64,000 nucleotides of DNA, taken from a virus. The notes beneath the pieces are model-generated. The model worked only from the letters and a program-made list of their open reading frames with translations, ran no database searches and was not told where the DNA came from. Shown piece after piece: positions 2-49,413 of the stretch. How positions within the stretch are numbered: position 1 is the first letter of the stretch; every line of letters begins with the position of its first letter. A program made the translations under genes and the position numbers. The stretch covers positions 17,637-81,636 of the IMG/VR virus record IMGVR_UViG_3300047497_000079, one strand, 5' to 3'.

Positions 2-1069
2 CCGAATGTTGCCATCGCCACGATCAATCTCAACACGCCAGCCACGGGCGGGTCCGACAAGGAGAGCATCGACTCCATCCGGTTCAACGCCCCGCGCAAT
101 TATACCCAGCAGTACCGGAATGTTACGACGGCCGACTACACCCAAGCCATCGTCTCTCAGTTTCAGAACATCCAGGCCGTCTCGGTATGGGGCGGTGAAC
201 ACAATACGACGCCCGATTATGGGAAGGTGTATATCTCCGTTAAGCCAACGACGGGCTTTACCCTGACGGCCTCGCAGAAGAGCCAGATCCAGACGGCCCT
301 TGCGCCCTCAAACGTAATGGCCATCCAGACGGTCTTGATCGATCCCACGTTCAACTATATCGTTCCGCAGGTGAATGTGTGGTTCAATTCGCTGAAGACT
401 TCGCTGTCGGCGACCCAGATCCTTGCCAATATTTCCGCGACCGTTCAGACCTTCGAGACCAACACGCTCGGCACCTTCCAATCGCCTTTTTACTTTTCAC
501 GGTTCGCGGCGGCCATCGATGGCACCGATCCCTCGATCCTCGGAAACGATTCACGGATACTGGTCCAGAAGCGGTTCACGCCCCAGCTAAACTCGTCGTT
601 CTCCTATGCCTTGAACTTCCATCAGGCCGTGGTCCATCCCTATGACGGGTATCTGGGAGCGATCACGTCGACGGGCTTTACGGTACCGCTTTACGCGCAG
701 ACCCTGTACATCACTGATGACGGGTATGGCAATCTCGTCACTTACTATCTGTCGGGTACGAGCAAGGTCTATGTGGCCCCGGACGGCACCAACAAAAACA
801 TAGGCACGGTCAATTACAGTACTGGTCTATTGCAATTCACGCTTCCCGTTGCGAGCGTCGTCGATGGATCAGGGGAAATCCAGATCAACATGGCCCCGGT
901 GCTTAGGGATGTGACGCCAGGTTTCAACGAAATCTTGCTCATTACCCAGTGCAACATCAACCTATATGATAGCGCTTCCGGCAATCTCGTCACTTCCGGC
1001 TCGGTCAATACAGCGGGCGATACGACGACCCTACAGCAGAACGGGTTTGCCACGGCCATCATCATATGA
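2..1069 (+). CDS. 6: Baseplate wedge protein, T4 gp6-like (5' end missing)
   Basis: The reading frame is already open at the left edge, so only about 355 C-terminal residues are present (T4 gp6 is 660). The fragment near the start, SIDSIRFNAPRNY followed by a TADY motif, is the typical baseplate J/gp6 signature. In T4, gp6 joins neighbouring baseplate wedges into a ring and drives the hexagon-to-star change at infection. The stop overlaps the next start codon (ATGA), indicating translational coupling with another baseplate gene. The family call is by recognised motifs; the missing N-terminus lies outside the window. Confidence 0.85.
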   Translation, partial: PNVAIATINLNTPATGGSDKESIDSIRFNAPRNYTQQYRNVTTADYTQAIVSQFQNIQAVSVWGGEHNTTPDYGKVYISVKPTTGFTLTASQKSQIQTALAPSNVMAIQTVLIDPTFNYIVPQVNVWFNSLKTSLSATQILANISATVQTFETNTLGTFQSPFYFSRFAAAIDGTDPSILGNDSRILVQKRFTPQLNSSFSYALNFHQAVVHPYDGYLGAITSTGFTVPLYAQTLYITDDGYGNLVTYYLSGTSKVYVAPDGTNKNIGTVNYSTGLLQFTLPVASVVDGSGEIQINMAPVLRDVTPGFNEILLITQCNINLYDSASGNLVTSGSVNTAGDTTTLQQNGFATAIII

Positions 1070-2403
1070 TTGACTGGAAGTTAGCCTCCAAGCTTTTACC
1101 ATCCCGTCTCCCGGAGTTCGTCCGTGAAGATGCCCGGATGTTCGTCTTATTCCTTTCGGCCTACTATGATTGGCTCGACAATCAGGGCAACCCATCATGG
1201 GGCATCAACAATTTCCTGCTCGAACTCGACATCGATCAGACCGAGGCCAAGTTCATATCGTCCTTCTGGGATTCGTACATGGCGACGGTCCCTTCGTCGG
1301 CCCTTGCTGATCCCCGGTTACTACTCAAGCATATCAAGCCGTTTTATCTCGCAAGGGGTTCGGAGACCTCGTTTAGGTTCCTATTCCGGGTGTTTTTCAA
1401 CACCGAGATCGATTTCTACTATCCAGGCAATGACATTTTCCGTCTCGATAACTCGGAATGGATCGTCCTCACCTCGCTCAAGATCACGCCCGCGGCCGGC
1501 ATCGATCCGAACCAGTATCTGAACAGGGAAGTGTATGGGAGCACCTCAGGAGCACGCACGGGCATCACCAACGTCATCTCCTATTACACGGCCGGCTTGC
1601 TCATTTTCGAGCTTTATTACGCCTCGTCCATCGGAGCATTCGTCGCGGGCGAAGAAGTCGTCGACTACGAAACCAATGCCACCATCGGCACAATCATCGC
1701 AGGCGGCGTCGTCAGCTATCCAGGCTATTACGACACCTATAACTCGCAGCCCGACGGTCCCTGCAAGCTCCAGGACGATTATTATTATCAAGCCTATTCC
1801 TATGTCGTGAAATCCCCGATCTCGTCGTCGGCCTATGAGCAGCTCGTTGCCAATTTGCTCCACCCGGCCGGGACCCTGCTCTTCCCCCAGTTTCAGGGCT
1901 TTTCGCAAGAACAGCTTCCGATTGCGTCGATCCAGAATTCGGTCATCAGTCTCGACGTTCCCGTTGCCTATGCCCTGCCCTTGGCCTACGGCAATTCCGC
2001 CTTCGCCACGTCCACCCTGGCCTTGCCGCCGCTAGCCATTTACGACACCGATGTATCCGTCCCGGTCTCCTACGCCTCTTCCTACGAGCCATGGACGGTT
2101 CAGGCCGATTACATCCAGATCCAAACCTACGCGACCTTGGGTTCCATCGCCGGATTCACAGGCTCGATTGTCGCGAGCTGGCAGGGCGCTACGTTTACCA
2201 ACGGCACGGGCGTCATCGGCATCGGCAATACGTCGTTCCTGTCCTATCTATCGGTGTCCCAGCCCGTGGAGATCATCGACGATTCGGGGGCCAATGCTCC
2301 CGCACCCAACGCCGTTGCGGCCGTCGATTCCAACACCACGATGCGGCTGGTCTTCCCCTATGCAGGCGGCTCCCTCGCGAACGGACAGATATACACTTAC
2401 TAA
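1066..2403 (+). CDS. Baseplate-associated virion structural protein
   Basis: A 445-residue protein coupled to gp6 by an ATGA overlap. The first 150 residues (LPEFVREDARMFVLFLSAYY, LLKHIKPFYLARGSE and FRFLFRVFFNTE) match a protein found next to gp6 and gp8 in many T4-like marine and jumbo phages, where it is listed as a virion structural or baseplate wedge component. The rest is rich in Gly, Ala, Ser and Tyr, as in beta-structured tail proteins. Position suggests it fills a wedge role such as T4 gp7 or gp53, but I cannot assign a specific T4 counterpart. Confidence 0.7.
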   Translation: MIDWKLASKLLPSRLPEFVREDARMFVLFLSAYYDWLDNQGNPSWGINNFLLELDIDQTEAKFISSFWDSYMATVPSSALADPRLLLKHIKPFYLARGSETSFRFLFRVFFNTEIDFYYPGNDIFRLDNSEWIVLTSLKITPAAGIDPNQYLNREVYGSTSGARTGITNVISYYTAGLLIFELYYASSIGAFVAGEEVVDYETNATIGTIIAGGVVSYPGYYDTYNSQPDGPCKLQDDYYYQAYSYVVKSPISSSAYEQLVANLLHPAGTLLFPQFQGFSQEQLPIASIQNSVISLDVPVAYALPLAYGNSAFATSTLALPPLAIYDTDVSVPVSYASSYEPWTVQADYIQIQTYATLGSIAGFTGSIVASWQGATFTNGTGVIGIGNTSFLSYLSVSQPVEIIDDSGANAPAPNAVAAVDSNTTMRLVFPYAGGSLANGQIYTY

Positions 2404-2417
2404 ATAATCGATTAGGG

Positions 2418-2933
2418 CTACAAATATTCTTTGTACTGGCGTAGCAAACTATCGTCCCCTTTGCTTGTTAGCGGAACATAGAACAGCATACGATTATCGG
2501 ACTTTTCATGAACTCTAAAAACACGTTTGCCATTCAAAGCTCGCTTCATCAATGCCGCAAAGTTGTAGAACGTGTTGAAACGCTGGGAATTCTCGCAGAT
2601 AAGCAGAATTATATCGCAGTAGCGAAACTTATTTAAATAGAAGAAGACCGCTTTTTTGACTAACGCCATAATCTCCTGAGCATCCTTTAACGATAGATCG
2701 TTAATCTTGCTGTAGTGTTCGTTCACAGTAAAATCTATCTGAAGAATCAGGCATCCATCCTCTTTGTAGGTTGCGGCATAGACCCCGACTGGTATATTGC
2801 TCTTTGTTTTCTGAATAACTCCATGGGTATTGGGCTTGTGTAGCCAGCGCTTAACAAAGTTGGGTACAAAAGAGCGTGGATGATCGTTAAAGGCCGGGTG
2901 GGCCTCGTTTAAGAACTGTTGGAAGCTTTGCAT
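2418..2933 (-). CDS. Candidate internal head protein with capsid-targeting N-terminus
   Basis: 171 residues, on the opposite strand to its baseplate neighbours. It opens with MQSFQQFLNEA, very close to the T4 internal-protein capsid-targeting sequence (MKTYQEFIAEA), with a gp21-type cleavage site L-N-E|A. The mature part is mixed, with no domain I recognise. A late-type promoter ends 4 nt before the start codon. The lone gene inserted head-on between baseplate genes looks like a moron. Packaging and injection are inferred from the N-terminus only. Confidence 0.7.
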   Translation of the reverse strand: MQSFQQFLNEAHPAFNDHPRSFVPNFVKRWLHKPNTHGVIQKTKSNIPVGVYAATYKEDGCLILQIDFTVNEHYSKINDLSLKDAQEIMALVKKAVFFYLNKFRYCDIILLICENSQRFNTFYNFAALMKRALNGKRVFRVHEKSDNRMLFYVPLTSKGDDSLLRQYKEYL

Positions 2934-2937
2934 CCCA

Positions 2938-2945
2938 TATTTATT
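2938..2945 (-). promoter_or_regulatory. T4-type late promoter (AATAAATA), leaderless spacing
   Basis: AATAAATA on the minus strand, 4 nt upstream of the ATG at 2933. It is one of a family of nATAAATA elements before late genes in this window. The next element (2954-2961) points the other way. Confidence 0.65.
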
Positions 2946-2953
2946 AACGGCCT

Positions 2954-2961
2954 TATAAATA
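2954..2961 (+). promoter_or_regulatory. T4-type late promoter, perfect TATAAATA
   Basis: An exact TATAAATA, 23 nt before the ATG of the gp8 homologue, leaving room for a short leader. T4 late promoters have this -10 sequence and no -35; the phage sigma factor gp55 would recognise it. Confidence 0.75.
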
Positions 2962-2984
2962 CTTTTAAAGACTCACGGTAATCC

Positions 2985-4481
2985 ATGTCAGGCATAATCA
3001 CGAACCACGTCCGGCTATTCGAGGCCAATACCTTCCTCAACCGCTTCAATTCGACGGACAATTTATATCTCTATATCGCGCGGATTACGCCCTGGCCCAA
3101 CGAGTCATCACCGCCGTCTGCGGCCGATACGGTGTTCTCGACCGATTACGACCTGTGGCGGCAGATCTATGCCATGAAGAAGGTGTCCATTGGCAACATG
3201 TCCTTCGGCGTCCCCCGCTATAACTGGACGACGGGCACGGTGTACAACGAATACCGGGACAACGATTCCTCGCTGATATCCGAACCATTTTTCGTGATCA
3301 CGTCGGCCCTGAACGTGTACAAGTGCTTGTATAACAATGGCGGGGCCACATCCACCGTACAGCCCACGGGCACGTCGACGTCGTCATTCCAGACGGCGGA
3401 CGGATACATATGGAAGTTTCTCTATCAAGTCTCGGCCTCGGGCGCGACGACCTTCCTGACGCCGTCGTTCATCCCCGTTCAAACCATCGCCTCGAACGAC
3501 GGATCGGCACAATGGTCGGTACAACAGGCAGCAATCCCAGGTTCCGTCGAAGTCATCGACGTCATTTCGGGCGGCACGGGCTTTACGGGCGATGCCAACA
3601 CGGCTTCGACGGCGTCGGCTTCCACAATCACCCTCCAGACTTCGGCCGCCACGGGCAAGCTCAACGGCTCTGTCGTCTATATCTCCTCAGGCACTGGCGC
3701 GGGTCAGCTCAGGACTATCACGGCCTGGAACGGGTCCACCAAGGTTGCCACCATTTCCCCCAACTGGACGACGACGCCCGATGGCACGTCTTCATACGTC
3801 GTCGGCGCACAGATCACGGTGGCGGGCGATGGACAGGGTTTAACGGCCTATGGCCTCGTCTCCAACACGGGTGTCATAACGTCCGTACCCGTCGTCTCAA
3901 AGGGCAATTCCTACACCATCGTATCTGCCACGGCCTCGGCAAATGGCGGTTCTGGAGCCAACCTCGACGCGTACGTAAGCCCTCGGGGCGGACATGGTTC
4001 GGATGCCGTGTCAGAGCTATTCGGGACCAATATCATCTTCTATGCGCAGCTCAATGGCACCGAGAGCAACACGATTTCTGCCTCGAACCAGTACCGGGTG
4101 CTGGGCCTGATCCTTGATCCGCTCCTCGCCAATGGTTCGCCGGCGACAGGGGCCGTTTACGATCAGACCACGCATCTAACCATCACGTCTCCCGTGGGCA
4201 CATTCACGAACGACGAGGAGATCGTGGGCCAGACCTCGGGGGCAACGGGCTATCTCGTCGATGATACGTCGAACGTCCTCCGTCTCGTCAATGTGACGGG
4301 CACCTTTGCCAATGCGGAAAGCGTCGTGGGGCAATCGTCATCTGCACACGGCACTGTTTCAGCAATTTCCGCATCTCCTCTTAAACTTTTTACTGGAAAC
4401 ATCCTCACCGTCGAAAATAGGCTTTCTGTATCAAGATCACCGAACCAAGCCGAAACTTTCCAGATTGTGATGGAATTCTGA
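2985..4481 (+). CDS. 8: Baseplate wedge protein, T4 gp8-like
   Basis: 498 residues against 334 in T4 gp8. The N-terminal third follows gp8 closely: YIARITPWPNE (T4 FGRSEPWSSNE), a VPRYNW block (T4 IPRRDW), VYKCLYNNGG and GYIWKFLYQV (T4 GYVWEYLFEI). The last 25 residues (ENRLSVSRSPNQAETFQIVM) match the gp8 C-terminus. The extra ~150 residues in the middle are Gly/Thr/Ser-rich and look like inserted beta domains, perhaps exposed on the baseplate. gp8 links gp10, gp7 and gp6 in the wedge. Confidence 0.85.
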   Translation: MSGIITNHVRLFEANTFLNRFNSTDNLYLYIARITPWPNESSPPSAADTVFSTDYDLWRQIYAMKKVSIGNMSFGVPRYNWTTGTVYNEYRDNDSSLISEPFFVITSALNVYKCLYNNGGATSTVQPTGTSTSSFQTADGYIWKFLYQVSASGATTFLTPSFIPVQTIASNDGSAQWSVQQAAIPGSVEVIDVISGGTGFTGDANTASTASASTITLQTSAATGKLNGSVVYISSGTGAGQLRTITAWNGSTKVATISPNWTTTPDGTSSYVVGAQITVAGDGQGLTAYGLVSNTGVITSVPVVSKGNSYTIVSATASANGGSGANLDAYVSPRGGHGSDAVSELFGTNIIFYAQLNGTESNTISASNQYRVLGLILDPLLANGSPATGAVYDQTTHLTITSPVGTFTNDEEIVGQTSGATGYLVDDTSNVLRLVNVTGTFANAESVVGQSSSAHGTVSAISASPLKLFTGNILTVENRLSVSRSPNQAETFQIVMEF

Positions 4482-4489
4482 TCCATCAC

Positions 4490-4497
4490 ACTAAATA
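4490..4497 (+). promoter_or_regulatory. T4-type late promoter (ACTAAATA)
   Basis: ACTAAATA, 24 nt before the ATG of the giant DUF4815 gene. It is a late-type element with a short leader. Confidence 0.6.
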
Positions 4498-4521
4498 CTT
4501 AAAACGCTTTAATCCTTCTAC

Positions 4522-7500
4522 ATGGCAAACACTTCAAATACGAATTCTGCTGACAATACGGTCCCGTGGATTGATACCAACCTATCGGAATATCCGTATT
4601 TTGATGACACCGACGAAACCAAGGATTATGAGCGGGTTCTATTTAAGCCTACCGTTGGCCTTCAGACTCGTGAGCTAAATGCTCTTCAGACTTATATCCA
4701 GAAGCAAAATGCCCGCGTCACGTCTTCCATATTCCAGGACGGCACCCGGATCAAAGGCGGGTCGTTTAACATTGACCTCAACGCAAATTATGTACGGCTT
4801 CAAGACAATGATCAGTTCGGTCATGCCGTAAACGTAACTAATTTTGCTAACACAGTTATTACTGGTGCTACTTCAGGTGTTAAGGCCCATGTCAGCCTTG
4901 TTCAGGCAGGTACACAGGCGGCTTCACCAAATACAAATCTACTCATTGTAAAATATACCGCTGCTTCTAGTTCGAATAATTCCGTTACGACATTTACGCC
5001 CGGTGAGATTATTTCATCTGATACGGGTTTCACTGCAACTGTAATAAACCTGACCTCTGCACTAGGATCTGCTTCGACGATGAAAGTCGACGACGGCATA
5101 TTCTTTTGCAAAGGATTTCCCGTTCGCTTTTCCAAAAGTTCCATTATCCTTGATCCCGCAAGCTCGACACCTTCGTGCCGTGTAGGTATCATCGTCAACG
5201 AAAACATCGTAAATTACGAAGAAGATCCAACTCTTCTTTCTAATGCCGCAGGCTTCAACAATTATAACGCACCGGGCGCGGATCGGCTTCAACTGCTCCC
5301 CGAACTTACGATCCTCGGACTTACTGAGTCTGTACCGTCGAACTTTTCTCAGATCTGCGTGCTATCAAATGGTGTCATTCAGTCAGTAAACCAGCCCGAT
5401 ACTCTATCGAATGTGATGGACGTTTTGGCTCAGAGACAGTACGAGACCACTGGGAACTTTGTCGCCAACGGCATGAACCTCAGTGTGGTCGAATGTCTCG
5501 ATAGCGGTATCAACAACGGGTATTTGTCTGCTAATAATGGTGGCAACACCTATCAACTTGCCGTTGGTGTCCAGCCTGGGTATGCCTTTGTAAAAGGCTA
5601 TAACGTCCAGTACTATGTCACTCAGTGGGATCTTATCGACAAGGGCATTGATTATGTCAATGTTGACTCCGTTACAATTCAGACAAATTACGGAAACTAT
5701 GCGAATGTAAAGCAGCTTGCTGGTTATTTCGATACCGTCAATGGCACTCCTGTAAGCTTATACAGTGCCAACCAGTATGCTCTCTCCAACAATACCTACG
5801 TGTCTGGAAGCTATAATGGTTCGATCATAGGCACGGCTCGTGTTCGTGAAGTCGAGCTTCAGACAGGCAACTATGACGACGCTGCCGCAACATTCAACGT
5901 CTATCTGTACGATGTAAAAATGACGGCCAACGATTTTTCGGCTGTCTGTTCTATCGTTTCAAATACTGGTGTATGCGATATCATTCCCGATGCTTCGTCA
6001 AATACAGCTTATCTATATGACGCAAGTTTCGACGACGCCGTCTTCCCCATTGCAAATCAGGCAATCCGGACGATCAGAAACGCCAACGGCAATGTTGTAA
6101 ACTCTTATGAGTTTACACAGTCCTTTCCCGTGACGATTGCGTCTTCGGGGACTTTTACCGTTGCAACGGGAAGTTCAAGCGAAACGTTTCCCTACTCTCC
6201 CGGTCTGTTAAATAGTACCCAGGTCCAAGACTTTATGGTTGTCTTGCAGGGTAGCGCAAACGTTGCCCTCCAGGGAACAGTCACGACTGTCAATGGCAAT
6301 ACCACTGTTACCGGCGCGAATACAATATTTTCTACACAGCTCCGGGAATCTGACAAGATAAATGTTGGCGGCAATCTGTATCGCGTTGCTAATGTCAATT
6401 CGAACACCAGTCTAACCCTTTGGCATCCCGCCACATCCAATGCGACGTCCTCTTTTTCGAAGCAGTATATTAGCGGCGACATCGTCCCATTCAATGTAAA
6501 TGGTACGAGTGGCACTGCACGTACCATCACCGCAAGTTCATCGACGTCTGCTGCTTTCAACCTTGAGGAAACACTATCCAATAACGTTTCGGCCGTTGTC
6601 TTCTGTAAGCTTATTAAGGCTAACGCAACGGAGAAGAAGAAACACTTAAATAACGCTTATGTAATAATTGATACTACGACCCATTCTGCTAATACCGTTG
6701 GCCCCTATTCATTGGGTTTCGCGGACATTTACAGCGTTATTAGCTGCCGTACGTCAGCCAACGCTTTTGTTAATGTAACGGACGGAACCGACGTCTCGTC
6801 ATATTTTCTGTTCAATACAGGACAGAATGATGATTTGTATGGTCTCGGTTCTATGTCCATCGCTAACACTAGCGTCGTGCTGGATCGTTATTTGTTGGTC
6901 AATGTTGCCTTTTTCTCACATGACTTTTCACAGGGGTCGTGCTTCTTTACAGTCGACTCGTACCCCGTTGACGACACGACGTACACGAGCAACTCCACGA
7001 TTAGGACGGAGTTAATACCATACTTCCAGTCACCTTCGGATGGTACCTTATACAGTCTTCGTCAGTGCATAGATTTTCGCCCTGCTTTGGTAAATACAGC
7101 AGCTAATTCTGCTACCATATCAGGTGCTACCACCAACCCGTCTGCCAATTCCACTCTAAATGTGCCATCGGGTGGCTTACATTTTCCGGTTATCGACTCA
7201 AACTTTACCTCTTCCTTCTCTTATTACCAGGGCCGTGTCGATCTCGTCACTCTTACGCCAACCGGAGGGCTCAATGTCATTCGTGGTGCGCCGGCAGATA
7301 GCCCTGTAACGCCACAGACGCCTTCTTCGACCATGGCTCTTGGCACTGTTCAAGTGCCTCCCTATCCGTCCTTGGCCAACACCGTCACGACGTCCTGGTT
7401 GGGTTCCAAGGGTTATACGATGCAGATGATCGGGGCGCTTGAGACCCGCATCGCCGCGCTTGAATATTATTCCAGTCTCAACCTATTGGAGCAGAGCACG

Positions 7501-10500
7501 AGTGCGCTGCAAATTCTCGACTCTAACGGGCTGAACCGATTCAAAAATGGGTTCATTGCAGATAATTTCTCTGGCTCGAATATCGTAAATGTGTATGACG
7601 TTGAATACCTCTGCTCTATTGACACCACAAATCAATTGTGCCGCCCCCGCTTCTACCTTAATCAGGTAAAGCTTGACTACGATCAAGTACATTCAAATAA
7701 CTGTGTCACATCCGCTAACGCAGTATCACTGATACTAGCCAGTAATAACACCACGTTTGTAGCAGGCCAGGCTTTTCAGACCAATTCTGCAAGCGGCACT
7801 GTCGTTGCAACACATGGCAACCGAGTTTATCTGGAAAATATCATCGGGACATTTGCCGCTAATTCTTACACGCTTGAAACCAACAGCTCACCGACGACCT
7901 ATCAGATCACGAGCGTTGTTCCATCTGTCAATGGATCGTTGCTAACTCTGCCATGGACCAACTATCTCGCGATACAGCAACCCTATGCGACAGAAACACG
8001 GAATGCTGCTGGTCTGGAATGGGATTGGGTAGGCAACGTAACTCTATACCCACCTTCCGATTACTGGGTTGATACGAACCAAAGCGCAGACGTGGTTCTA
8101 AACGTCGGCGACCAGAATGATAACTGGGAGGCCAACAATGGCTGGGTTACGACCTGGAATTCTTGGCAGACCGTCTGGACTGGCACGAGCACGTCGAATA
8201 CAACTACAACTCAGATAACTGTTAATAGCGCCAGTGATTTGACAGATATTACTGCTGTCGCGCAGTATGTCATTAACGGTGGCACTTTGACCTTAGGTCG
8301 TCTTGGGGGCAATTATGGGCTCTCCACAATTGAAAGCCGTTGGTCGTCGTTTTTTTCAGACAATGAACCTCTTCAAGGTGTAATTGCTTGGTTACAAGAG
8401 GAGTTATCTCGTTACGGATCGAGCGGTGTAGAAACCGTTACTATTCAGAACGGCGTATCTACTACCAACACGGTACAGACCAGGACGGGCACTTCTTCCT
8501 TAACGACCTATTCAGAGCAGACATCGACGGTCGGTGATTATGTGATTGACACATCACTCAATCCCTACATGCGCTCGCAGGCTATTGTGTTTGTGGCCAC
8601 GGGAATGAAGCCAAATGCACAGCTCTATCCATTTTTCGACAACATCGCGGTCTCTCAATATTGTGCTCCCCTGGCGAATGTGAGTTTCCAGAATTCTTTG
8701 ATTTCAGTCGCCAATACGAATGCGTATATACCACTGCAATCGTCCTTGGACCAGGCTTTAGCGACGGGGATCGAGGTTCCGACTCTTGGCGATCCTTTGA
8801 TAAGTGATGCTAATGGTAATGTGATCGGTGTTTTCTATCTTCCTGATAATCCAAATCGGCAGTTTAATGTTGGTTCGGTCGTTTTCCGGCTTTCGGATTC
8901 TTTGGTCAATTCTAATACCGTGGGCGATGTCACCACCTCGGCCGAGGCTACCTATTCTGCATATGGTATTACGGATACCACGTCCAATCTGATCGTTTCG
9001 ACGCAGGTAGCCTCGACCCAGACACAGAGCGTTACCCAGACTCAGACTTTATCTTCGACGACTACGACCTCACAAGTCGTAGCGGCGGCACTTTATGAGC
9101 CCATTGTACAGTCTTTCTCGGTTCCGTTGCCTTCCAGTGAAACGGCCGAGGGAGTGTTTGTCACACGGCTTGATTTGTTCTTCCAGACCGCCGATCCGGT
9201 GCAACCCGTTACGATCAGTCTCGTTGCCCTTGACCCCAGCACCGCACAGGTTACCAGCACTACCATCCCTCTATCTACCAAGATCCTGTATCCTGGAGAT
9301 ATTAACGTATCTGCGGATGGAACGGTCCCCACGCCGTTCTATTTCGACTCGCCGATCTATCTGACGGCCGGTCAAATGTATGGATTTAAGATTTTCCCAG
9401 GTGGAAGTAACCCGAATTATAACGTGTGGGTCGCCACTCTCGGCCAGACGGATGTCTCCACGGGTATACAGGTCATACAAAATCCTGCGTCGGGCAATCT
9501 TTTCGTTTCGTCAAACGATCAAACGTATACGGCCGTAACAAATCAGCAGGTTAAGTTTAATCTGTACGTGGCACAGTTCAACACATCAGTGCAAGGTTCT
9601 GCCGTTCTTTATAATGATCCCCAAGAGTATTTGCAGCTATCTTCCAATACTGGCGGTGCCTACTTTATGACGGGCGAGCCGATATTTGGTCCGACCACTA
9701 TCACTCTCTCAAATGTCGCAAATGGAACTCCCGTCGTCGGAGATATCGTCCGTGGGTCTACATCTAACACGTCGGGCTATATTACTGCCGTGTCTAATAA
9801 TGTTCTAACTGTTACGCCTTGGGCCAATCAGTTAGGGGCTTCCTACTTCTCGAACGATGCCATGACCATTCTTTATGCGAATGGATCGGCTACGGGCATA
9901 ACCTCTAACACTATTTCTGTTACCTTCCCTTCGGGCCTACAGTCCAGTTCGTCGCTCGGAACGCTGGTATTGAATACTATGTCAAATACGCAGTTTCAGG
10001 TGAACAACACTATTGTTGGACAGTTTGCTGGCCTCTCCAGTGTTTTAAATTCCTTTGGCAATATCCAATATGACGTTTATCAGCCGACGATATCATCGCT
10101 TGTGTTTCCGAAAACATCTATTGCTTGGGCGGCTAAGACAACTTCTAACACGGGAACATTGGATAGCTCCTATAATGCATGTGTGGTGAACAACAATAAT
10201 AATTGTCTCGGACAGCGCGTAATCTATACCAATACTTACGAAAAGAACATGCTGGGTGATCATTCATTCAAGTTGAATGGCATTTTATCCACCTCGGACG
10301 CTTATCTGTCTCCTGTGATCGATCTCACCAGGAGCGGTGTCATCCTGGTTGGTAACATCATAAACAATGTGACTACAAATGAGACGACACCTCATGCGGG
10401 CCAAGCAGCCGCGAAATATGTTACCCGTTTAGCAACTCTTGATGCCAATATGGATGCCGAGGATATCGTCGTCTATGTCACGGCATACCGCCCGCCCGGA

Positions 10501-18800: not shown

Positions 18801-18874
18801 TGGTTCACCCTCATGGATTCGAACCACGGTTTTCTGATCCAAAGTCAGACGTCCTACCGCTAGACGAAGGGTGA
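18801..18874 (-). tRNA. tRNA-Gln (TTG)
   Basis: Full cloverleaf on the minus strand: 7-bp acceptor TCACCCT/AGGGTGA, anticodon stem TCTGA/TCAGA with loop CTTTGGA (anticodon TTG), T-arm with TTCGAAT, and encoded 3' CCA. It lies within the accessory module beside the integrase. Reads CAA/CAG codons. Confidence 0.93.
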
Positions 18875-18886
18875 TCTGAATAAATG

Positions 18887-19550: not shown

Positions 19551-19817
19551 TTATGTCGCGCCGGTCGCTGCCCAGGTATAAGTGACTTCCGCTCCAATAC
19601 CAAATCCTTGCTCTGTGGCGATTTCAACGACGATATCCTTCAAGATGTAGGCCATATCGTCGAGCGCATCATACAAATTATAGATCTCAGTCTGAAACTC
19701 GTTCTCCCACCGGCTCGTCAGCTCCTCCAACTTGCTGGAAATGTTATCCTGTGTGGTCCTGACGCGCTTCTCCAATTCGAGCAGTGTCTCTGTGTTATGC
19801 TGTATTCTGAACTCCAT
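19551..19817 (-). CDS. Coiled-coil protein overlapping the integrase 3' end
   Basis: 88 residues, start overlapping the last 23 nt of the integrase in another frame, so probably coupled to it. Residues 1-45 are a coiled coil (LLELEKRVRTTQDNISSKLE) followed by an acidic amphipathic segment. No family recognised. Downstream, another minus frame stays open from about 19630 to 19381 without an obvious start (see findings), which may mean a frameshift or an unseen third gene. Confidence 0.5.
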   Translation of the reverse strand: MEFRIQHNTETLLELEKRVRTTQDNISSKLEELTSRWENEFQTEIYNLYDALDDMAYILKDIVVEIATEQGFGIGAEVTYTWAATGAT

Positions 19818-21090
19818 ACTTCATGACAAAGGCTTCCTCCCTAAATTTAATGATCATTTGTTCCCATTTGTTTAACGCTTCAACTTTTTCATCGAGATAC
19901 TCATATAAGTTGTAAACTGCCGCAATCTGAGAATGAGCGACAACTCCCCCAGCAAGCGTATGATCGAGGATGGACTCGGTAACTTCGCGGGGAACTCCCA
20001 ATTTAGGGCGTGCAAAAGTTGTCGAGAAAGAACGGCGAAAATCATGCGGGGTCCAGTCTTCTGCCCATAATAGCTGCTTCTGTTCGCTAAGGGTGCCACA
20101 CCGCCTTTTGAGTTCGAACAATCCTTTTGAAAAGCCAGAGAACGGATTCTTATCGTTCCCCTCTGCCGGAAAAACATAAGGCGATGTTGTCCGCTCTATC
20201 GTCTTCATGATTTCGAATGCCGTTGGCGAAAGTGGTAATAATAGCTTCTTACCAGGGGATCGCTGCTTGGAATGTACAAAGATTTGGCGATCCTCTAAAT
20301 GAACGTTCTCCCATAGCAACTGCGTTATTTGTCCGCGTCTTGCACCAGTGAGCATAAGTAAGCGAACAATGTCTCCGTAATGTTTACCCTCATTCGACAT
20401 CTCTTCAGCAGCAAGATAGATTAATCCAAGTTCCGAGTTAGACACAACTCTGCTTCTTGGAATGTATTCGGAAACTTTTTTGATCTTAGCAGCGGGAGAC
20501 TCCTTTAATTGTTTTGCGTCGACTGCCCACGAAAAGAAACGCTTGATGTCCGAGACTGCATGATTTGCGGCACCATTTTTACCCTTACTCTTGAGATCAT
20601 CAATGATCTTCTGGATGTCCTGTTCGGTAACAGCGTTGATATCTTTTTCACCAAGGGAAAGACAAAATTTCCTATTCAACGTCCAGGATAACTCTTGAAC
20701 TGATCGTGGTCGCATTTTTGGTTTTGCATAGTTTTCGATATACTCATCTACTACCGCTGAGAAGGTTTGCTTTTCCTCGGGAGTAGACTCCATGACCTGT
20801 GATTTGGGTCGGTATTCACCATCGGTAATGCGAAGCTTAATTGTTTTTGCCTCGGCTCTGGCGTCTGCCAGTTTCATTTCGGGATAACGACCTACCGTGG
20901 CTTTCACACTCTTACCTTCGGGTGTATGGCCTACCACAATGTATGCAATGGCCCCTTTTTGAGACACACGCACTCCGAAACCTTTTAAGGTTTTGTCCCA
21001 AATGAAATATTGCTTACCCGTTTTCTTAAGATTTTGCAGAATTGTCTGTTGCAGATCCCGCCTATTATTATCCATCTTTTCGTTCTTCAT
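19795..21090 (-). CDS. int: Tyrosine integrase, P4/DUF4102 type
   Basis: 431 residues, the usual length for P4-type integrases. Residues ~20-95 form the DUF4102 arm-binding domain (LKGFGVRVSQKG, VGRYPEMKLADARAEAK); ~108-200 a SAM-like core-binding domain; ~215-410 the catalytic domain with all key residues: Arg in LTGARRGQI (~251), Lys ~275, H-x-x-R in PHDFRRSF (349/352), His ~377 in LDHTLAG, and nucleophile Tyr ~393 in AVYNLYEYL. It should recombine the adjacent attP with a host tRNA-His gene. GGAGTGAAAT precedes the ATG. No truncation is seen. Confidence 0.93.
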   Translation of the reverse strand: MKNEKMDNNRRDLQQTILQNLKKTGKQYFIWDKTLKGFGVRVSQKGAIAYIVVGHTPEGKSVKATVGRYPEMKLADARAEAKTIKLRITDGEYRPKSQVMESTPEEKQTFSAVVDEYIENYAKPKMRPRSVQELSWTLNRKFCLSLGEKDINAVTEQDIQKIIDDLKSKGKNGAANHAVSDIKRFFSWAVDAKQLKESPAAKIKKVSEYIPRSRVVSNSELGLIYLAAEEMSNEGKHYGDIVRLLMLTGARRGQITQLLWENVHLEDRQIFVHSKQRSPGKKLLLPLSPTAFEIMKTIERTTSPYVFPAEGNDKNPFSGFSKGLFELKRRCGTLSEQKQLLWAEDWTPHDFRRSFSTTFARPKLGVPREVTESILDHTLAGGVVAHSQIAAVYNLYEYLDEKVEALNKWEQMIIKFREEAFVMKYGVQNTA

Positions 21091-22639: not shown

Positions 22640-22692
22640 AAATTCGTATACTCCTCTTGCCAAGGAGTACTGTTATGAATATAGATTGATCG

Positions 22693-22757
22693 GCAGGTAC
22701 CAGCCCGTGGCCACCTGCTGGGATCCGGCTGGTTTTCCGCATGACCAGACCGGATCC
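22693..22757 (+). other. Two consecutive stem-loops before a late gene
   Basis: GCAGGT/ACCTGC (22693-22718) followed by GGATCCGG-CTGGT/ACCAG-ACCGGATCC (22721-22757; one unpaired base). They could terminate the upstream transcript or form a small structured RNA. No T-tract follows the second stem. Confidence 0.5.
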
Positions 22758-22776
22758 TTCTTGTACTCTTGCCGTG

Positions 22777-25268: not shown

Positions 25269-26915
25269 CTACTTTCCAAAATATGTTGACAGCTCGTCGA
25301 AATGGACGGGAGCGTAATTGGTCATTTCCATCGACACGCATGCATAACGTGGATCTTTCAGCGTCTTGTAGTGCAGGTGGCCATGCACACAGCGGGTGTA
25401 TCTTCCATCCTCAAACTCTTCGGTGTGTACGGGCATATGAGCCGCGACTATCCCTTCTTCCTTAAAGTGCCGCCAGTACATCACCTTTTCGAAGTAGTCC
25501 ATTAGGGACGTTCCCTTCAGGCTATCGTGATTACCGATACAGAGACGTTTCTTTCCCTTTAAGCGGCGCGCAATGTTCTTGGTAAAATTCTGCCAGTCCA
25601 TTGTCACGTCCCCGAGGAAGTAGACGTGGTCCACGTCGTTCACACGCGCGTTGTGTTGGGAGATCATGAACTCATCCATCTCCTCGACGGTTTTGAACCC
25701 TGGCCGTAAAAGGCTGCCGTCGTCCCGATAGAACGGTGACGTTATCATTTTGGCGTGCCCGAAGTGATGATCGGCCGCGAAGAAGATGTTCACGGTATAA
25801 CAGGTTCCGATCAATGACCGCATCGCATCGACGCTGGTCTGCGAACCCGTCCGTCCGCGCATAAAATTGAGGACCTCTTGCATTGGGTTCTGAGAATCCA
25901 GAGCTGCGAAGGCGATGGTTCGGATGTCGCGGGGGACATCCTTAAGCACCTCTACGGCGAATGTTTTCCTGTCCACATGGCGGGCTTTTTCGAGAAGAGA
26001 GGCGATCTGAAGGGCTATGTTTCTCATCTGCTCCTCAACGGCGTTCCGATATGTCACGATGTGCTCCTGGTCCTCCTCACTGAGCAACGGCAACACGTCG
26101 TCGATCTCACCCATCAAGATCAAGGCAAGCACGTTCTTTTCGTAGACCGTAGAGTCTTTTGCCCTGTGTTTGAGGATGTACTCTTCGCCCTTACATTTCA
26201 TAAGCTGACGTAGGGGTTCATGTTCAAAATCCGGATCGAACATGAGCACATACCCTTCTTGCCCCTTCAGCTCACGAACGTGGGAAAGAAAGGCCGCGCA
26301 TTCACCCCACTGGGTCTCCATGGCTGATACCCGATCAACACCAATGTGCCTCGCGAATAAATCCAGTCCTTTATAGGAAAGATAGCCACCCGTATTGATG
26401 AAACGAGCCCCTATGAGGGTCAACTTAGGCTCTTCGTACCTAATGACAATTCTGTTGGAAGGGGCCGTAAACTCAAAGATTGGAGTCACGCCTGTCTCAA
26501 TGATATCCGTACACGCCTTAATAAAACCTGGTGTCGCACACAGTTCCTCGGCCATTAGAGAGGTGTCGGTAATCCCAGCCCGCGTCATGAGTCTGCATTT
26601 GCCCATAACCATTGCGGCATGAACCATCGACCCGTCCAGCTTATCCATAATCACATGGGGCTTAGACAGGTCGATCATACCAGGCTGAGTTTCTGCCCTC
26701 TCTCCGATGTTGAAGAACTTGTGAAAGGGCCGGCCGATGATCTTTCCATTACCGTCAAACTTGATTCCCCGGAATTCACGGCGAATAGGATCGTCGAAAC
26801 TATCGCTCAGGCCGATCTGATAATCGACGGAGATATAGCCCGGTGCCCTGTGTATACGAAACTCCGTGCGGCCTTCTATGGCAGGAAGAACATCATTTAA
26901 GGATTCAATAAGCAT
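25269..26915 (-). CDS. Rnl1-type RNA ligase fused to a calcineurin-like phosphoesterase
   Basis: 548 residues. Residues 1-~300 are a T4 Rnl1-like ligase: FRGIKFDGNGKIIGRPFHKF, nucleotidyl-lysine motif K92-L-DGS, FEFTAPSNRIVI (motif III), EGYVLMF (IV) and a Lys-rich motif V near 250. Residues ~376-548 are a metallophosphoesterase with every metal ligand motif: ADHHFGH (382-388), GDV (436), GNHD (461-464), H493, HGHLH (511-515). One chain could therefore remove a 2',3'-cyclic phosphate and seal RNA, as in repair of cut tRNAs. Last gene of the leftward operon. Confidence 0.88.
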   Translation of the reverse strand: MLIESLNDVLPAIEGRTEFRIHRAPGYISVDYQIGLSDSFDDPIRREFRGIKFDGNGKIIGRPFHKFFNIGERAETQPGMIDLSKPHVIMDKLDGSMVHAAMVMGKCRLMTRAGITDTSLMAEELCATPGFIKACTDIIETGVTPIFEFTAPSNRIVIRYEEPKLTLIGARFINTGGYLSYKGLDLFARHIGVDRVSAMETQWGECAAFLSHVRELKGQEGYVLMFDPDFEHEPLRQLMKCKGEEYILKHRAKDSTVYEKNVLALILMGEIDDVLPLLSEEDQEHIVTYRNAVEEQMRNIALQIASLLEKARHVDRKTFAVEVLKDVPRDIRTIAFAALDSQNPMQEVLNFMRGRTGSQTSVDAMRSLIGTCYTVNIFFAADHHFGHAKMITSPFYRDDGSLLRPGFKTVEEMDEFMISQHNARVNDVDHVYFLGDVTMDWQNFTKNIARRLKGKKRLCIGNHDSLKGTSLMDYFEKVMYWRHFKEEGIVAAHMPVHTEEFEDGRYTRCVHGHLHYKTLKDPRYACVSMEMTNYAPVHFDELSTYFGK

Positions 26916-33116: not shown

Positions 33117-33755
33117 TTAATAGTATTCCGAAGCCGGGCAGCAAGTGCCCGGAGGAAAAATGGAATAAAATCATTTCATTAGCGTTAATATGGGGCGTTA
33201 ATAGGGATAGTTACCGCGACCAGGCCACGGGAGCAGTTGAGGGCAAAAAAGAGCCCCGAAGAGAATACACGCTCCGAGGCCAAGTTGAGATAGGGAAACT
33301 TGAAAGAGAAGGACTTCTCTTTCAAGGCGTCATGGTTAATGCATGGTTTAGGATTAGTCAAGGGGGGGAAGAGCGGAGCACCAGGGCTATGTTAGGCCAA
33401 CAGCTCGACGCTCTTCCCAGCCACCGTTCGCCTATTGGGCGGGGCACAGGTGGCTGCCCTTATATGTGACGGGCCTATAGCCGTGTCAACTATTCCGTTT
33501 GTGACAGATTTATCACAGACTATTAGTTTTATGAATGTATCTTCCCAAACAGGGAATAATACGTTAACCTTAACCTGATGCATACCGCATCATCAGGGTG
33601 GTTGACATGAGAGCTGAAGCAAACTCTTCCCATTTGCCGGTGTATACTCTTACCTTAGGTTGCGCTTTCGATTATGGGTGATAGCATCCTTACCCTTTGT
33701 TTTCGCGGGACTTCGGGAACAGAGAGGGGATCGTTAGATCCCCTTAGGAGCGTGC
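33117..33755. promoter_or_regulatory. Divergent control region between two operons
   Basis: About 640 bases without a credible gene, between the leftward (33092) and rightward (33756) operons. It holds CCGGGCA/TGCCCGG (33134-33152), two GCGTTAATA repeats near 33190-33210, a perfect 12-bp hairpin CTTGAAAGAGAA/TTCTCTTTCAAG (33299-33326), a palindrome TGTGACAgattTATCACA (33500-33517), and CCTGATG/CATCAGG near 33575-33598. These are probably promoters and operators for both directions; no promoter is certain. Confidence 0.6.
33725..33745 (+). other. Hairpin in front of a ribosome-binding site
   Basis: AGGGGATC/GATCCCCT with loop GTTA, immediately followed by AGGAG and the ATG at 33756. It may shape translation of the first rightward gene. 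Confidence 0.5.
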
Positions 33756-38820: not shown

Positions 38821-39504
38821 CTGTCCAAGGTCATTCTAATGCGTGTAGGGGCGGTTCATTGCATTTATATGCATGTCCTTGCGGTTCATTAACTGCACAG
38901 ACTCTTGCCCTCGATCTCCCACCCCCAGGGTCGCAAGCGGCCCACACAAGCCTGCCCAAGAATTGATCACGAACTGCCTAAGGAATACTCAAAGTTCCAT
39001 AATCCAACTTATGCGAACGAAAAACATGGGAGTAGTCGGCCCGTTCAAGGCATCATCGATCTCCAACTGCAAGGTGAACACAAAGTGAAACTCACAGCAA
39101 CGTTGGGGTTGAAGTCCGTTGCCAATCCGGCATAAACTCTTCCCTCGCCCCATCGTCAGGGGGCAAGGAGGAGGGGTTCTCAACGGCGCGTACGATCCAT
39201 TTGCAGCCGTGACAGCGGGGTAGAACCCCTCCTCCCCTCCCGTAAGCCCTGTCATATCAACGCCCTGTCCTGGCCCGTCCTTGTGGTTCATGGAGGGCCG
39301 CGCGTTCGCGCCGGCCTGTAGAAACCGACATATGCCAGGGATGGCATGGTGCAGTTGGGGACCCCGGTTGCCAGGAGTCTACATTGCTCTTTGCACGTTT
39401 TTGCTAGGATCACCCCTCGTTTACCAAGGTTTTACAAAGGGGTACCTTGCCCTTACAAATTTTTTTGCCAACCCCAACTACTCCCTGAAACGATTGGAGT
39501 AGTC
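38725..39504 (+). other. 780-base intergenic region with repeats and hairpins
   Basis: No convincing gene (short frames at 38742 and 38905 have poor codon patterns). Contains the 11-nt array, two GCGGTTCATT repeats (38851, 38881), a 14-bp inverted repeat GGAGGAGGGGTTCT/AGAACCCCTCCTCC (39167-39180 with 39222-39235), a TTCG-loop hairpin (39295-39316), and AAGGG/CCCTT followed by T7 near 39445-39470, a likely terminator. It could include an RNA gene or replication/packaging site. Confidence 0.55.
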
Positions 39505-44064: not shown

Positions 44065-45468
44065 ATGATCATTGATGTTAACCGCCCCATCACGGGAAAG
44101 ACTCTCATTGACCTCGGATACAAGTCTGGTCCCTGGTTTTCCCGTGCCATAGCCGAAGCCGAAGCGGCGCGGAAGCTTCATCGCCCCGCTGACGAGATCC
44201 GCCTCATCATCGACAGCTACGTTCCGGCACCGCCGACGCCGCTACACCCCATGGGGTTTCGGCCGTTCCATCTCAATATCGAAGCCGTGAACGAAGGAGA
44301 TGCCGATAACATCAACAAGGTGTCCGTGGCGATGGACCATATCATGCGCGTTCCTACCGTCGTTGCAGGGGCCATCATGCCCGATGCCTGTCCCACGGGA
44401 GGTCCGGGAGAGATCCCCGTAGGCGGCGTTGTAGCCACGCAGGGGGCCATTCATCCGGGGTGGCACTCCTCTGACATCTGTTGCTCTCTTGCCATGTCCG
44501 TGCTCGGAGACGTCGATCCGAAGGCCGTTTTGGACGCGGGTATGGCCCTCACTCATTTTGGACCTGGGGGCCGGCCGCGGTCGGGACAGATCCGGCCCAA
44601 TCTCGAATTCCTGGAACGGATGAACGAGAACAGCTTCATGAAGCACGTCGTATCCGAAGCCATTGAGCACAACGCCACGCAGGGCGACGGCAACCACTTT
44701 TTCTATGTGGGACGGGTAGCTTCCACGGGCCACACGGCCATCGTCACCCACCATGGCTCACGAAAGCCCGGTGCCCTCCTGTATAAGATGGGTATGGTCC
44801 TGGCCGAGAAGAACCGTAAGAAGATCTGCCCCGAGGCCCCGCCCGTCGCGGGCTGGATCGACGCCGACACTTACGAAGGCGAGGAATACTGGAACGCCCT
44901 GCAACTGATCCGTGAATGGACCAAGAACAACCACATGGTCATTCATCACCTCGTATCCGGGCGGCTCAAGGCAAAGATCCGCGATCAGATGTGGAACGAA
45001 CATAATTTTATTTTTCGTAAGACGGACGGGCACTTCTACCACGCGAAGGGGGCGACACCTGCTTACAAGGGATATGCCGCCGACGAAACGGGCGTAACGC
45101 TGATCCCCCTGAACATGGCCGAACCTATCCTCATGGTCGAGGGCCTCGATGCTCCTAATGGTCTCGGCTTTTCTCCTCACGGGGCAGGCCGGAACTATTC
45201 CCGTACGGCGTTCATGAACTCGTTAGGACCTAACGCCGATAAGAAGGAGATCGTCGCGGAACAGACCAAGGGCATAGACGCCCGTTTCTTCTGTGGTGTT
45301 CCCGATCTGAGCGAGCTGCCCGGAGCCTACAAGAATGCCTCCACAGTTCGTTCGCTCATCGACAAGTTCGGACTTGCCAAGGTCGTCGATACCGTCGAAC
45401 CTTACGGTTGTATCATGGCCGGGGACTGGCAGGTGAACGCGCCGTGGCGAAAGAAGAAAGGTAGATGA
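44065..45468 (+). CDS. rtcB: RtcB-type RNA ligase
   Basis: 467 residues. RtcB active-site motifs are present in order: D137-x-x-C140 (SDICC), GDGNHF (208-212), THHGSR (228-233), HNF near 313, a HxKGAT block (326-331, with Ala where HRKGAT is usual) and HGAGR with the guanylylated His at ~372. RtcB joins 3'-phosphate (or cyclic phosphate) ends to 5'-OH ends using GTP and Mn2+. It would repair tRNAs cut by host nucleases. The small differences make it a divergent member. tRNA-Ser follows 2 bases later. Confidence 0.87.
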   Translation: MIIDVNRPITGKTLIDLGYKSGPWFSRAIAEAEAARKLHRPADEIRLIIDSYVPAPPTPLHPMGFRPFHLNIEAVNEGDADNINKVSVAMDHIMRVPTVVAGAIMPDACPTGGPGEIPVGGVVATQGAIHPGWHSSDICCSLAMSVLGDVDPKAVLDAGMALTHFGPGGRPRSGQIRPNLEFLERMNENSFMKHVVSEAIEHNATQGDGNHFFYVGRVASTGHTAIVTHHGSRKPGALLYKMGMVLAEKNRKKICPEAPPVAGWIDADTYEGEEYWNALQLIREWTKNNHMVIHHLVSGRLKAKIRDQMWNEHNFIFRKTDGHFYHAKGATPAYKGYAADETGVTLIPLNMAEPILMVEGLDAPNGLGFSPHGAGRNYSRTAFMNSLGPNADKKEIVAEQTKGIDARFFCGVPDLSELPGAYKNASTVRSLIDKFGLAKVVDTVEPYGCIMAGDWQVNAPWRKKKGR

Positions 45469-47819: not shown

Positions 47820-48185
47820 ATGATGAACCCCGTTGAACTTCGTCTATTCCAGTCGGCCTACTGGGCTGCCATGGCAAAGACGAGGGAGCATCGCGTAGCT
47901 CACAAGTACGCCGTGCAGCCGTCCGCCAAGGAATTCCACAAGCACATGATGGCTAGCACCCTAGCCGATGCCAAGTCGATAAGGGACACGATCACCCGAT
48001 ATACGACGCCGCCGAAGCCGATGCGGATACACAGACCCCGCAAGCCCGCGACCAAGAAAACCTTCATATCAGACGCGCGCTGGTCAGTGTTCAAAATTCG
48101 GGAAGGAGTGTTTAAGCACGCCCCCATCGGCGGTAGTTCTGGTGCGATCTTCAAAGACCCGGCCGCTCGTATGTGTCTGTGCTAG
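47820..48185 (+). CDS. Basic hypothetical protein
   Basis: 121 residues from ATG 47820 (GGAGAAG upstream; a second ATG follows). Arg/Lys/Pro-rich centre (PPKPMRIHRPRKPATKKTF). No capsid-targeting start. Function unknown. Confidence 0.5.
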   Translation: MMNPVELRLFQSAYWAAMAKTREHRVAHKYAVQPSAKEFHKHMMASTLADAKSIRDTITRYTTPPKPMRIHRPRKPATKKTFISDARWSVFKIREGVFKHAPIGGSSGAIFKDPAARMCLC

Positions 48186-48188
48186 TAC

Positions 48189-48218
48189 TTGAACTGCTTC
48201 TCCTGTCACCCATATGAA
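48189..48218 (+). promoter_or_regulatory. Sigma70-type promoter of the RNA cluster
   Basis: TTGAAC (48189-48194), 18-bp spacer, TATGAA (48213-48218). Transcription would begin at about 48225, at the base of the first structured RNA. Confidence 0.55.
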
Positions 48219-48221
48219 TAT

Positions 48222-48323
48222 TGCCAAAGGCAGCAAATAGGAAACGGACCTCCGGTTTACTAGGCGCGCCCCTATGGGGATTAGCTAACACCTACTGAAG
48301 CTTTATCCCCGCTGCCTTTGGCA
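48222..48323 (+). ncRNA. Structured RNA 1 (three-way junction), unknown class
   Basis: Closed by a perfect 13-bp helix TGCCAAAGGCAGC (48222-48234) / GCTGCCTTTGGCA (48311-48323). Inside are a hairpin at 48242-48258 (AAAC/GTTT plus GG/CC) and a longer one at 48276-48310 (GGGGAT/ATCCCC then AGCT/AGCT), the latter abutting the closing helix. The joining strand holds GGCGCGCC. No open frame. Likely a stable RNA; family not recognised. Confidence 0.65.
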
Positions 48324-48406
48324 TCACCCACTACTCTCTTTACCTTAATGCTGATCATCGGACCACTCCACCTTGCCATTATGTTTTTGATATCCATTTC
48401 AAGTGA

Positions 48407-48504
48407 GCCGGGGATACTCTAATGCAGGAGTTTTCTTCGGGAGACGGGTCTCCACTTTAGCAGAAGTAGTCTGCTTTCCTGCGGGCCGTGTAAGTATCCC
48501 CGGC
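48407..48504 (+). ncRNA. Structured RNA 2 (cloverleaf-like), unknown class
   Basis: Perfect 12-bp closing helix GCCGGGGATACT (48407-48418) / AGTATCCCCGGC (48493-48504); inside, GCAGGA/TCCTGC (48424-48429 with 48477-48482) encloses two hairpins, GGAGA-CGGG-TCTCC (48440-48453) and AGCAGA/TCTGCT (48459-48475). It is tRNA-sized but lacks a T-loop, so it is not a tRNA. T4 also makes two stable RNAs (C and D) of unknown role beside its tRNAs. Confidence 0.65.
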
Positions 48505-48523
48505 ACAATCTCCTCCCCTATAT

Positions 48524-48589
48524 CGTGATGTAGCTCAATTAGAGCCCCTGCCTGTCGGGGAGATGAAGGTTCAAGTCCTTCCATCACGA
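48524..48589 (+). tRNA. Degenerate tRNA-Asp-like (GTC) gene
   Basis: Acceptor CGTGATG/CATCACG and T-arm GAAGG-TTCAAGT-CCTTC are sound. The D-loop is only five bases (AATTA, no GG) and the anticodon arm is CCCC/GGGG around TGCCTGTC, lacking two bases after the GTC. At 66 nt it is short. It may be non-functional, or a specialised tRNA-like RNA. Confidence 0.5.
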
Positions 48590-48597
48590 CCCCATAA

Positions 48598-48626
48598 AAA
48601 AAGGACCGCAACAGCGGTCCTTTTTT
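48598..48626 (+). terminator. Intrinsic terminator of the RNA cluster
   Basis: AAGGACCGC/GCGGTCCTT with loop of four bases and T6; A's upstream make it work for the convergent peptidase gene as well. Confidence 0.9.
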
Positions 48627-48642
48627 CTTTCCGAGAACGACC

Positions 48643-49413
48643 TTAAGCGGCCAGGGGGAGAACTCTTCTGGCTCGTTCGTCTTTCAACCACCCATTGATC
48701 AAATCATTAGACATTGCACGAGCCGGGGCATTCAACATCATTTTGATCACATGAGCCGATTGAAAGGCCCCCGACGAGGTGTCGTGACCATAACCCTTCA
48801 CGACGGCGTTGATTACGTCATTTGCCGATGAAGGGAACTCCCACTCGGGGTGAGCCTCAAAGAGCTGCATAAACCCATATATCATTCCCACAGTGTGGGA
48901 TTCGACTTCCCAAGGCAAATTGTTGTATTCGGCGTTGGAACTGATCCCGCCTTCGCCGCCGAGCTTTTCCAATACACTCTTCTTTGCATTCCAGAACCGT
49001 AGCGGTTCCTTGAAATGCTGTGTGAGGTGCGTCACTTCGTGTGCAATTACGGACTCGGTCTGTTCGAGAGAAGCTTGATCCCGAATTCCGTTTATCATCA
49101 ATATACACAGGGTGTCTGGTGACGGTGAAGGAAAGATACATTGACCTTTTGTTTCGGGGTTCATCAAGGGAGAAGGTACCACCATTACCTTATCCCATCG
49201 AATTGGTGATGCGTCGTAAGGCGTTACGGAGAGAATTCTGAAAACACCTGGGCATGGGCCATTTTCTCTCAAGTTGGCAGCAAGAGCTTTCTTGAGATGC
49301 TTTGTCACCCCAAAGATGCCTGGAATATCCTGTGATGTTATGAGCCTCGCCTGTGAATCATAAAAGGCCGGCTGCGGGTCGAGATAGTAAGCAAATGGAA
49401 GCTTCTTGGTCAT
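48643..49413 (-). CDS. Zinc metallopeptidase
   Basis: 256 residues. HEVTH at 125-129 (SVIAHEVTHLTQHF) with a probable third ligand Glu at 169/171 in NNLPWEVESHTVGM: the same spacing and context as the product at 37750, so they are diverged relatives. Here there is no capsid-targeting start and no late promoter motif. Hydrophilic, no signal peptide. Target unknown. Confidence 0.75.
   Translation of the reverse strand: MTKKLPFAYYLDPQPAFYDSQARLITSQDIPGIFGVTKHLKKALAANLRENGPCPGVFRILSVTPYDASPIRWDKVMVVPSPLMNPETKGQCIFPSPSPDTLCILMINGIRDQASLEQTESVIAHEVTHLTQHFKEPLRFWNAKKSVLEKLGGEGGISSNAEYNNLPWEVESHTVGMIYGFMQLFEAHPEWEFPSSANDVINAVVKGYGHDTSSGAFQSAHVIKMMLNAPARAMSNDLINGWLKDERARRVLPLAA

Follow-up and report, generated by a model that had tools for sequence, protein, structure and literature searches.

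Two structured elements ahead of a degenerate tRNA-Asp-like gene in the genome of a T4-type phage

Stable RNAs of the kind of rnaC and rnaD of phage T4, encoded beside phage tRNA genes, are an old puzzle: both are late RNAs that have been seen on Northern blots and whose function is unknown (PMC9697503). ROOL and GOLLD, too, are structured RNAs of phages for which no function is known, and they are frequently encoded near tRNA genes (PMC12286853). Predicted tRNA pseudogenes, on the other hand, have been listed in T4-like phages and are ordinary there (PMC1524935). Here, we describe a gap between two genes of a phage record in which two structured elements, designated RNA1 and RNA2, lie ahead of a tRNA-Asp-like gene.

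The window, that is, the whole stretch of 64,000 nucleotides that was analysed, corresponds to bases 17637-81636 of a linear IMG/VR virus record with a total of 81,636 bases; for record-wide analyses it was joined to the record's first 17.7 kb. Judging from its portal and terminase, which match T4-like phages, the record belongs to a T4-type myovirus. Both genes look interrupted by inteins when their translations are inspected by eye. The phage is an unusual T4-like one and its lineage is distant within the T4-type: the best terminase match was Pelagibacter phage Mosig with 45.6% identity, and terminase kin reached 41-46% identity at most, with 41-45% among the matches listed in an alignment scan of their own. 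Single-protein scans of IMG/VR with the 256-aa neighbour protein, RtcB, the terminase and ART retrieved no close relatives, and neither did a terminase scan of genome_contigs. The single RtcB match obtained in IMG/VR was not counted as kin, since its contig carries unrelated neighbours. A tyrosine integrase (19795-21090) lies near a tRNA-Gln gene (18801-18874) in this T4-type phage. About 15 repeated cassettes, consisting of a hairpin, TTAGYCCATTTT or TTAGCCAATTTT, and AGGAGG, precede small genes in the record bases before the window (about 380-7900), and we take them to resemble the PeSL mobile regulatory cassettes of T4-type phages. In addition, an N-terminus like MLSFxxFLxE recurs in about seven proteins (24008, 37750, 46748, 49540, 50348, 15665 (+) and 37713 (-)), which may be akin to the sequence that targets internal proteins of T4 to the capsid; one of the carriers has a sub-threshold ART-PolyVal match.

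The gap under study (48186-48642) is flanked by the 3' ends of two convergent genes coding for proteins of 121 aa (plus strand) and 256 aa (minus strand). Its features, together with two genes for RNA-repair enzymes located elsewhere in the record, are the following:

47820-48185, plus strand: 121-aa gene, upstream of RNA1
48213..48220, plus strand: late-motif-like site TATGAATA, resembling the T4-type late promoter motif with one mismatch, weak promoter candidate
48222..48323, plus strand favoured by anatomy: RNA1, predicted three-way junction with a perfect 13-bp closing helix (48222-48234/48311-48323)
48324..48406, both strands scored: linker between RNA1 and RNA2, z about +1.2 on the plus strand and +1.4 on the minus strand
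48407..48504, both strands fold: RNA2, closed by a perfect 12-bp helix (48407-48418/48493-48504), followed by an internal loop and an inner stem with two hairpins
48524..48589, plus strand: 66-nt degenerate gene resembling tRNA-Asp(GUC), Rfam tRNA 45.7 bits
48596-48627, both strands: two-way intrinsic terminator by sequence and inverted repeat, 13-bp stem between A and T runs
48643-49413, minus strand: 256-aa gene, convergent, beyond the terminator
44065-45468: RtcB, RNA-repair enzyme
25269-26915: fusion of an Rnl1-like RNA ligase with a phosphoesterase, RNA-repair enzyme

The first-pass annotation had described a perfect 13-bp helix closing around two hairpins in RNA1 and a perfect 12-bp helix closing around a three-stem interior in RNA2. 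Both helices were found again, that of RNA2 enclosing a stem that bears two hairpins. When inverted repeats were defined as perfect, of at least 12 bp and with a loop of 20-120 nt, the 64-kb window contained 4 of them versus 0.3 expected from shuffles, and 2 of the 4 fall inside this 410-nt gap. In dinucleotide shuffles of the gap (n=3000), at least one such repeat appeared in 0.17%, and two in 0/3000. On the plus strand, the fold of RNA1 has a z of about -4.3 to -4.8, which places it at rank 2/683 in a fold scan restricted to the noncoding windows of the record on that strand, while the fold of RNA2 is weaker (z about -2.9 to -3.7). The folds of RNA1 and RNA2 thus exceed chance. Since the linker is less structured than its shuffles on either strand, RNA1 and RNA2 are discrete elements. 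Other strongly folded noncoding elements of the record lie at 39167-39235, which bears a perfect 14-bp stem, at 33362-33465 and at 22690-22760.

Neither element scored above the gathering threshold of any Rfam family, ROOL and GOLLD included. Blastn searches with the region found no RNA1 or RNA2 in phages, where the 11 short matches comprised ten in the tRNA-like part and one at the terminator, nor in plasmids, where the sole match (34 nt) was at the terminator. Pattern scans of IMG/VR, which require exact short matches, gave zero matches for RNA1 and for the tRNA-like gene and two for RNA2. These two were discarded as chance matches: blastn aligned at most 18 nt, and neither folds with the closing helix of RNA2. 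No relatives were obtained by blastn and nhmmer over 89 loci, and single-sequence covariance models run on 88 sources (887 kb, mostly T4-type) recovered only RNA1 and RNA2 themselves plus one weak match, a hairpin at 18885 with an E of 0.46; the minus-strand matches of these models were the same places read backwards. A second copy of either element was not found in the record. In the collections searched, from which near-identical records may be absent, RNA1 and RNA2 appear as orphan structured elements, and the case for them stands on structure in one genome.

A degenerate 66-nt tRNA-Asp had also been proposed in the gap, and it is indeed present: its Rfam tRNA score is 45.7 bits versus a cut-off of 29, and it was not called by ARAGORN. 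As in a functional tRNA, the cloverleaf has a 7-bp acceptor and a 5-bp T arm, both intact. What a functional tRNA would have and this gene has lost are the conserved GG of the D loop and a normal anticodon arm, which is shortened and has a predicted loop of 5 nt instead of a 5-bp stem and a 7-nt loop. Relative to E. coli aspV, 4 nt are deleted within the D arm and a further 4 nt behind the anticodon, and CCA is not encoded. The gene reads as a decaying tRNA-Asp, and its RNA probably cannot act as an adaptor, although its defects may also reflect an assembly error in a single record.

Concerning the ends of a possible transcript, ATAAATA is the T4-type late motif of this phage: it has 20 exact sites in the window and the preceding record bases, of which 19 are noncoding and 16 lie no more than 60 nt ahead of a gene on their own strand. 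At 48213, TATGAATA differs from TATAAATA by one mismatch, and because TATAAATA has many sites (n=65) once one mismatch is allowed, it is a weak promoter candidate. The sigma-70 promoter that had been reported ahead of RNA1 did not hold up, as a scan found none on either strand of the gap; TTGAAC-18-TATGAA matches the sigma-70 consensus at 8/12 positions by eye. The terminator claimed at the other end is present at 48596-48627, where it separates the RNA region from the convergent gene at 48643-49413. It is an inverted repeat and reads as a two-way terminator. Its stem recurs in the computed fold, and the consensus scan did not list it. Taken as a whole, what had been observed at first pass stands for the helices, the tRNA-like gene and the terminator, falls for the promoter and holds loosely for the absence of a coding frame, while its interpretation survives as structured elements beside a degenerate tRNA, again without the promoter.

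As to that coding frame, there is no ORF of at least 50 aa on the plus strand, but short ORFs exist on both strands (24-41 aa on the plus strand, 35 and 38 aa on the minus strand), none with a clear codon signal. A hydrophobic 24-34-aa plus-strand ORF in the linker was set aside since it has no Shine-Dalgarno sequence and a poor codon score. On the minus strand, a 35-codon ORF starting with GTG coincides with RNA2 behind the Shine-Dalgarno-like GGGGAGGAG, and the 38-codon ORF starts one base after it (TGAaATG) and extends into RNA1. The codon scores of both are uninformative, lying where the real and the antisense controls overlap. The two elements are probably non-coding.

The choice of strand is less clear than that of the elements. 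With 10-nt flanks, RNA1 has a z of -5.6 on the minus strand versus -4.8 on the plus strand, and RNA2 of -5.3 versus -3.7; moreover, RNA1 gains on the minus strand an outer helix that is extended with G-U pairs. On the plus strand, only 1/35 pairs in RNA1 and 2/31 in RNA2 are G-U, and the G-U fractions favour neither strand. To judge from the orientation of the tRNA-like gene and the terminator directly after it, the plus strand is favoured. Because the minus strand folds at least equally well and the G-U pairs are not decisive, the idea that one precursor gives rise to three RNAs draws only on that orientation and that terminator, and both the precursor and its cutting into three stable species are inferred.

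Our preferred reading, to which we give slightly less than an even chance, is that RNA1 and RNA2 are self-contained structured RNAs made from the plus strand as the 3' tail of a transcript, probably a late one, that ends after the decayed tRNA. Transcription would read through the 121-aa gene (47820-48185) and stop at the terminator after the tRNA-Asp. Host RNases might then trim the tail, RNase P at the tRNA-like end and RNase III or E elsewhere, and the closed stems would protect the products, which could accumulate as T4 rnaC and rnaD do. As a function, we would favour trans binding to a nuclease or an RNA-binding protein of the host. Consistent with this reading are the pair of helices never obtained in 3000 shuffles, the high rank of RNA1 among the noncoding windows, the discreteness of the elements, the orientation of the tRNA-like gene with the terminator behind it, the want of a clear codon signal in the ORFs of the gap and the positional parallel with T4 rnaC and rnaD; against it stand the equal or better folding of the minus strand, the want of a supported promoter, the scarcity of G-U pairs on the plus strand and the fact that the collections searched yielded no homologue in which the pairs could covary.

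We hold it to be unlikely that the elements act instead in minus-strand transcripts, be these RNAs in their own right or a structured mRNA for small ORFs. The minus strand folds equally well or better, the outer helix of RNA1 is extended there by G-U pairs, and the 35- and 38-codon ORFs come with the Shine-Dalgarno-like GGGGAGGAG; however, the terminator cuts the elements off from the only upstream minus-strand gene, the promoter scan found none, the codon scores of the ORFs are uninformative and the tRNA-like gene is on the plus strand. Read in that direction, both elements lie past the terminator, and RNA1 is not followed by a T-run terminator of its own, which speaks for the plus-strand reading. 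About as unlikely is that RNA1 and RNA2 are simple 3'-UTR structures that stabilise the upstream mRNA or end its transcription and play no part of their own in trans. Their position directly behind a plus-strand gene and ahead of a terminator would fit, as would the frequency of structured intergenic elements in the record, but two branched junctions plus a terminator would seem to exceed what protection of an end needs.

Since hardly any G-U pairs occur on the plus strand, a role of the inverted repeats at the DNA level is conceivable, be it in recombination, as a remnant of a mobile element or as protein-binding sites. Nearly all pairs are Watson-Crick and therefore strand-symmetric, as such a role would have it, but no second copy exists in the record, the phages or the plasmids searched, no target-site duplication was seen by eye and the inner hairpins would be unnecessary, so that we regard it as improbable; its mobile-element version was dropped for want of copies. 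Only a little more credible is a sharper version of the plus-strand reading, in which the whole set of RNAs would serve host RNases or anticodon nucleases as a decoy or as a substrate, a role connected with the RNA-repair enzymes of the phage. It finds support in the presence of RtcB (44065-45468) and the Rnl1-like ligase-phosphoesterase (25269-26915) in the same record, and in a tRNA-like RNA that is probably no adaptor and keeps its acceptor and T arms. This support is context, though; T4-like phages ordinarily have predicted tRNA pseudogenes (PMC1524935), and a tRNA-like arm is absent from both RNA1 and RNA2. We see just a slim chance that RNA1 and RNA2 are stable phage RNAs of two new classes which, together with a tRNA-like decoy, soak up or steer host RNases or anticodon nucleases in a phage equipped with two RNA-repair ligases.

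Among the described systems, ROOL and GOLLD share with RNA1 and RNA2 the tRNA neighbourhood but neither the size nor the family score: many GOLLD members exceed 800 nt, whereas RNA1 to RNA2 span 283 nt. The tRNA-like gene fits the tRNA pseudogenes of T4-like phages, which leave RNA1 and RNA2 unexplained. The likeness to T4 rnaC and rnaD (the species 1 and 2 stable RNAs) consists in two RNAs of ~100-140 nt adjoining tRNA genes in a T4-type phage: in T4, rnaC and rnaD adjoin tRNA-Arg, and here the candidate RNAs RNA1 and RNA2, in tandem, adjoin a decayed tRNA-Asp. There is no convincing sequence similarity between the two pairs. In its predicted fold, T4 rnaC carries at the 3' end a T arm of the tRNA type and has no long perfect closing helix, whereas RNA1 and RNA2 have no T arm, and rnaD is barely more stable than its shuffles (z -0.8). 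The independence from T4 RNAs C and D assumed in the first-pass annotation agrees with these differences in T arm and sequence, and RNA1 and RNA2 resemble rnaC and rnaD in position only. If real, they would be another such pair, without relation to the first, in a distant lineage of T4-type phages, and would suggest that this niche is a functional one and not an accident of T4.
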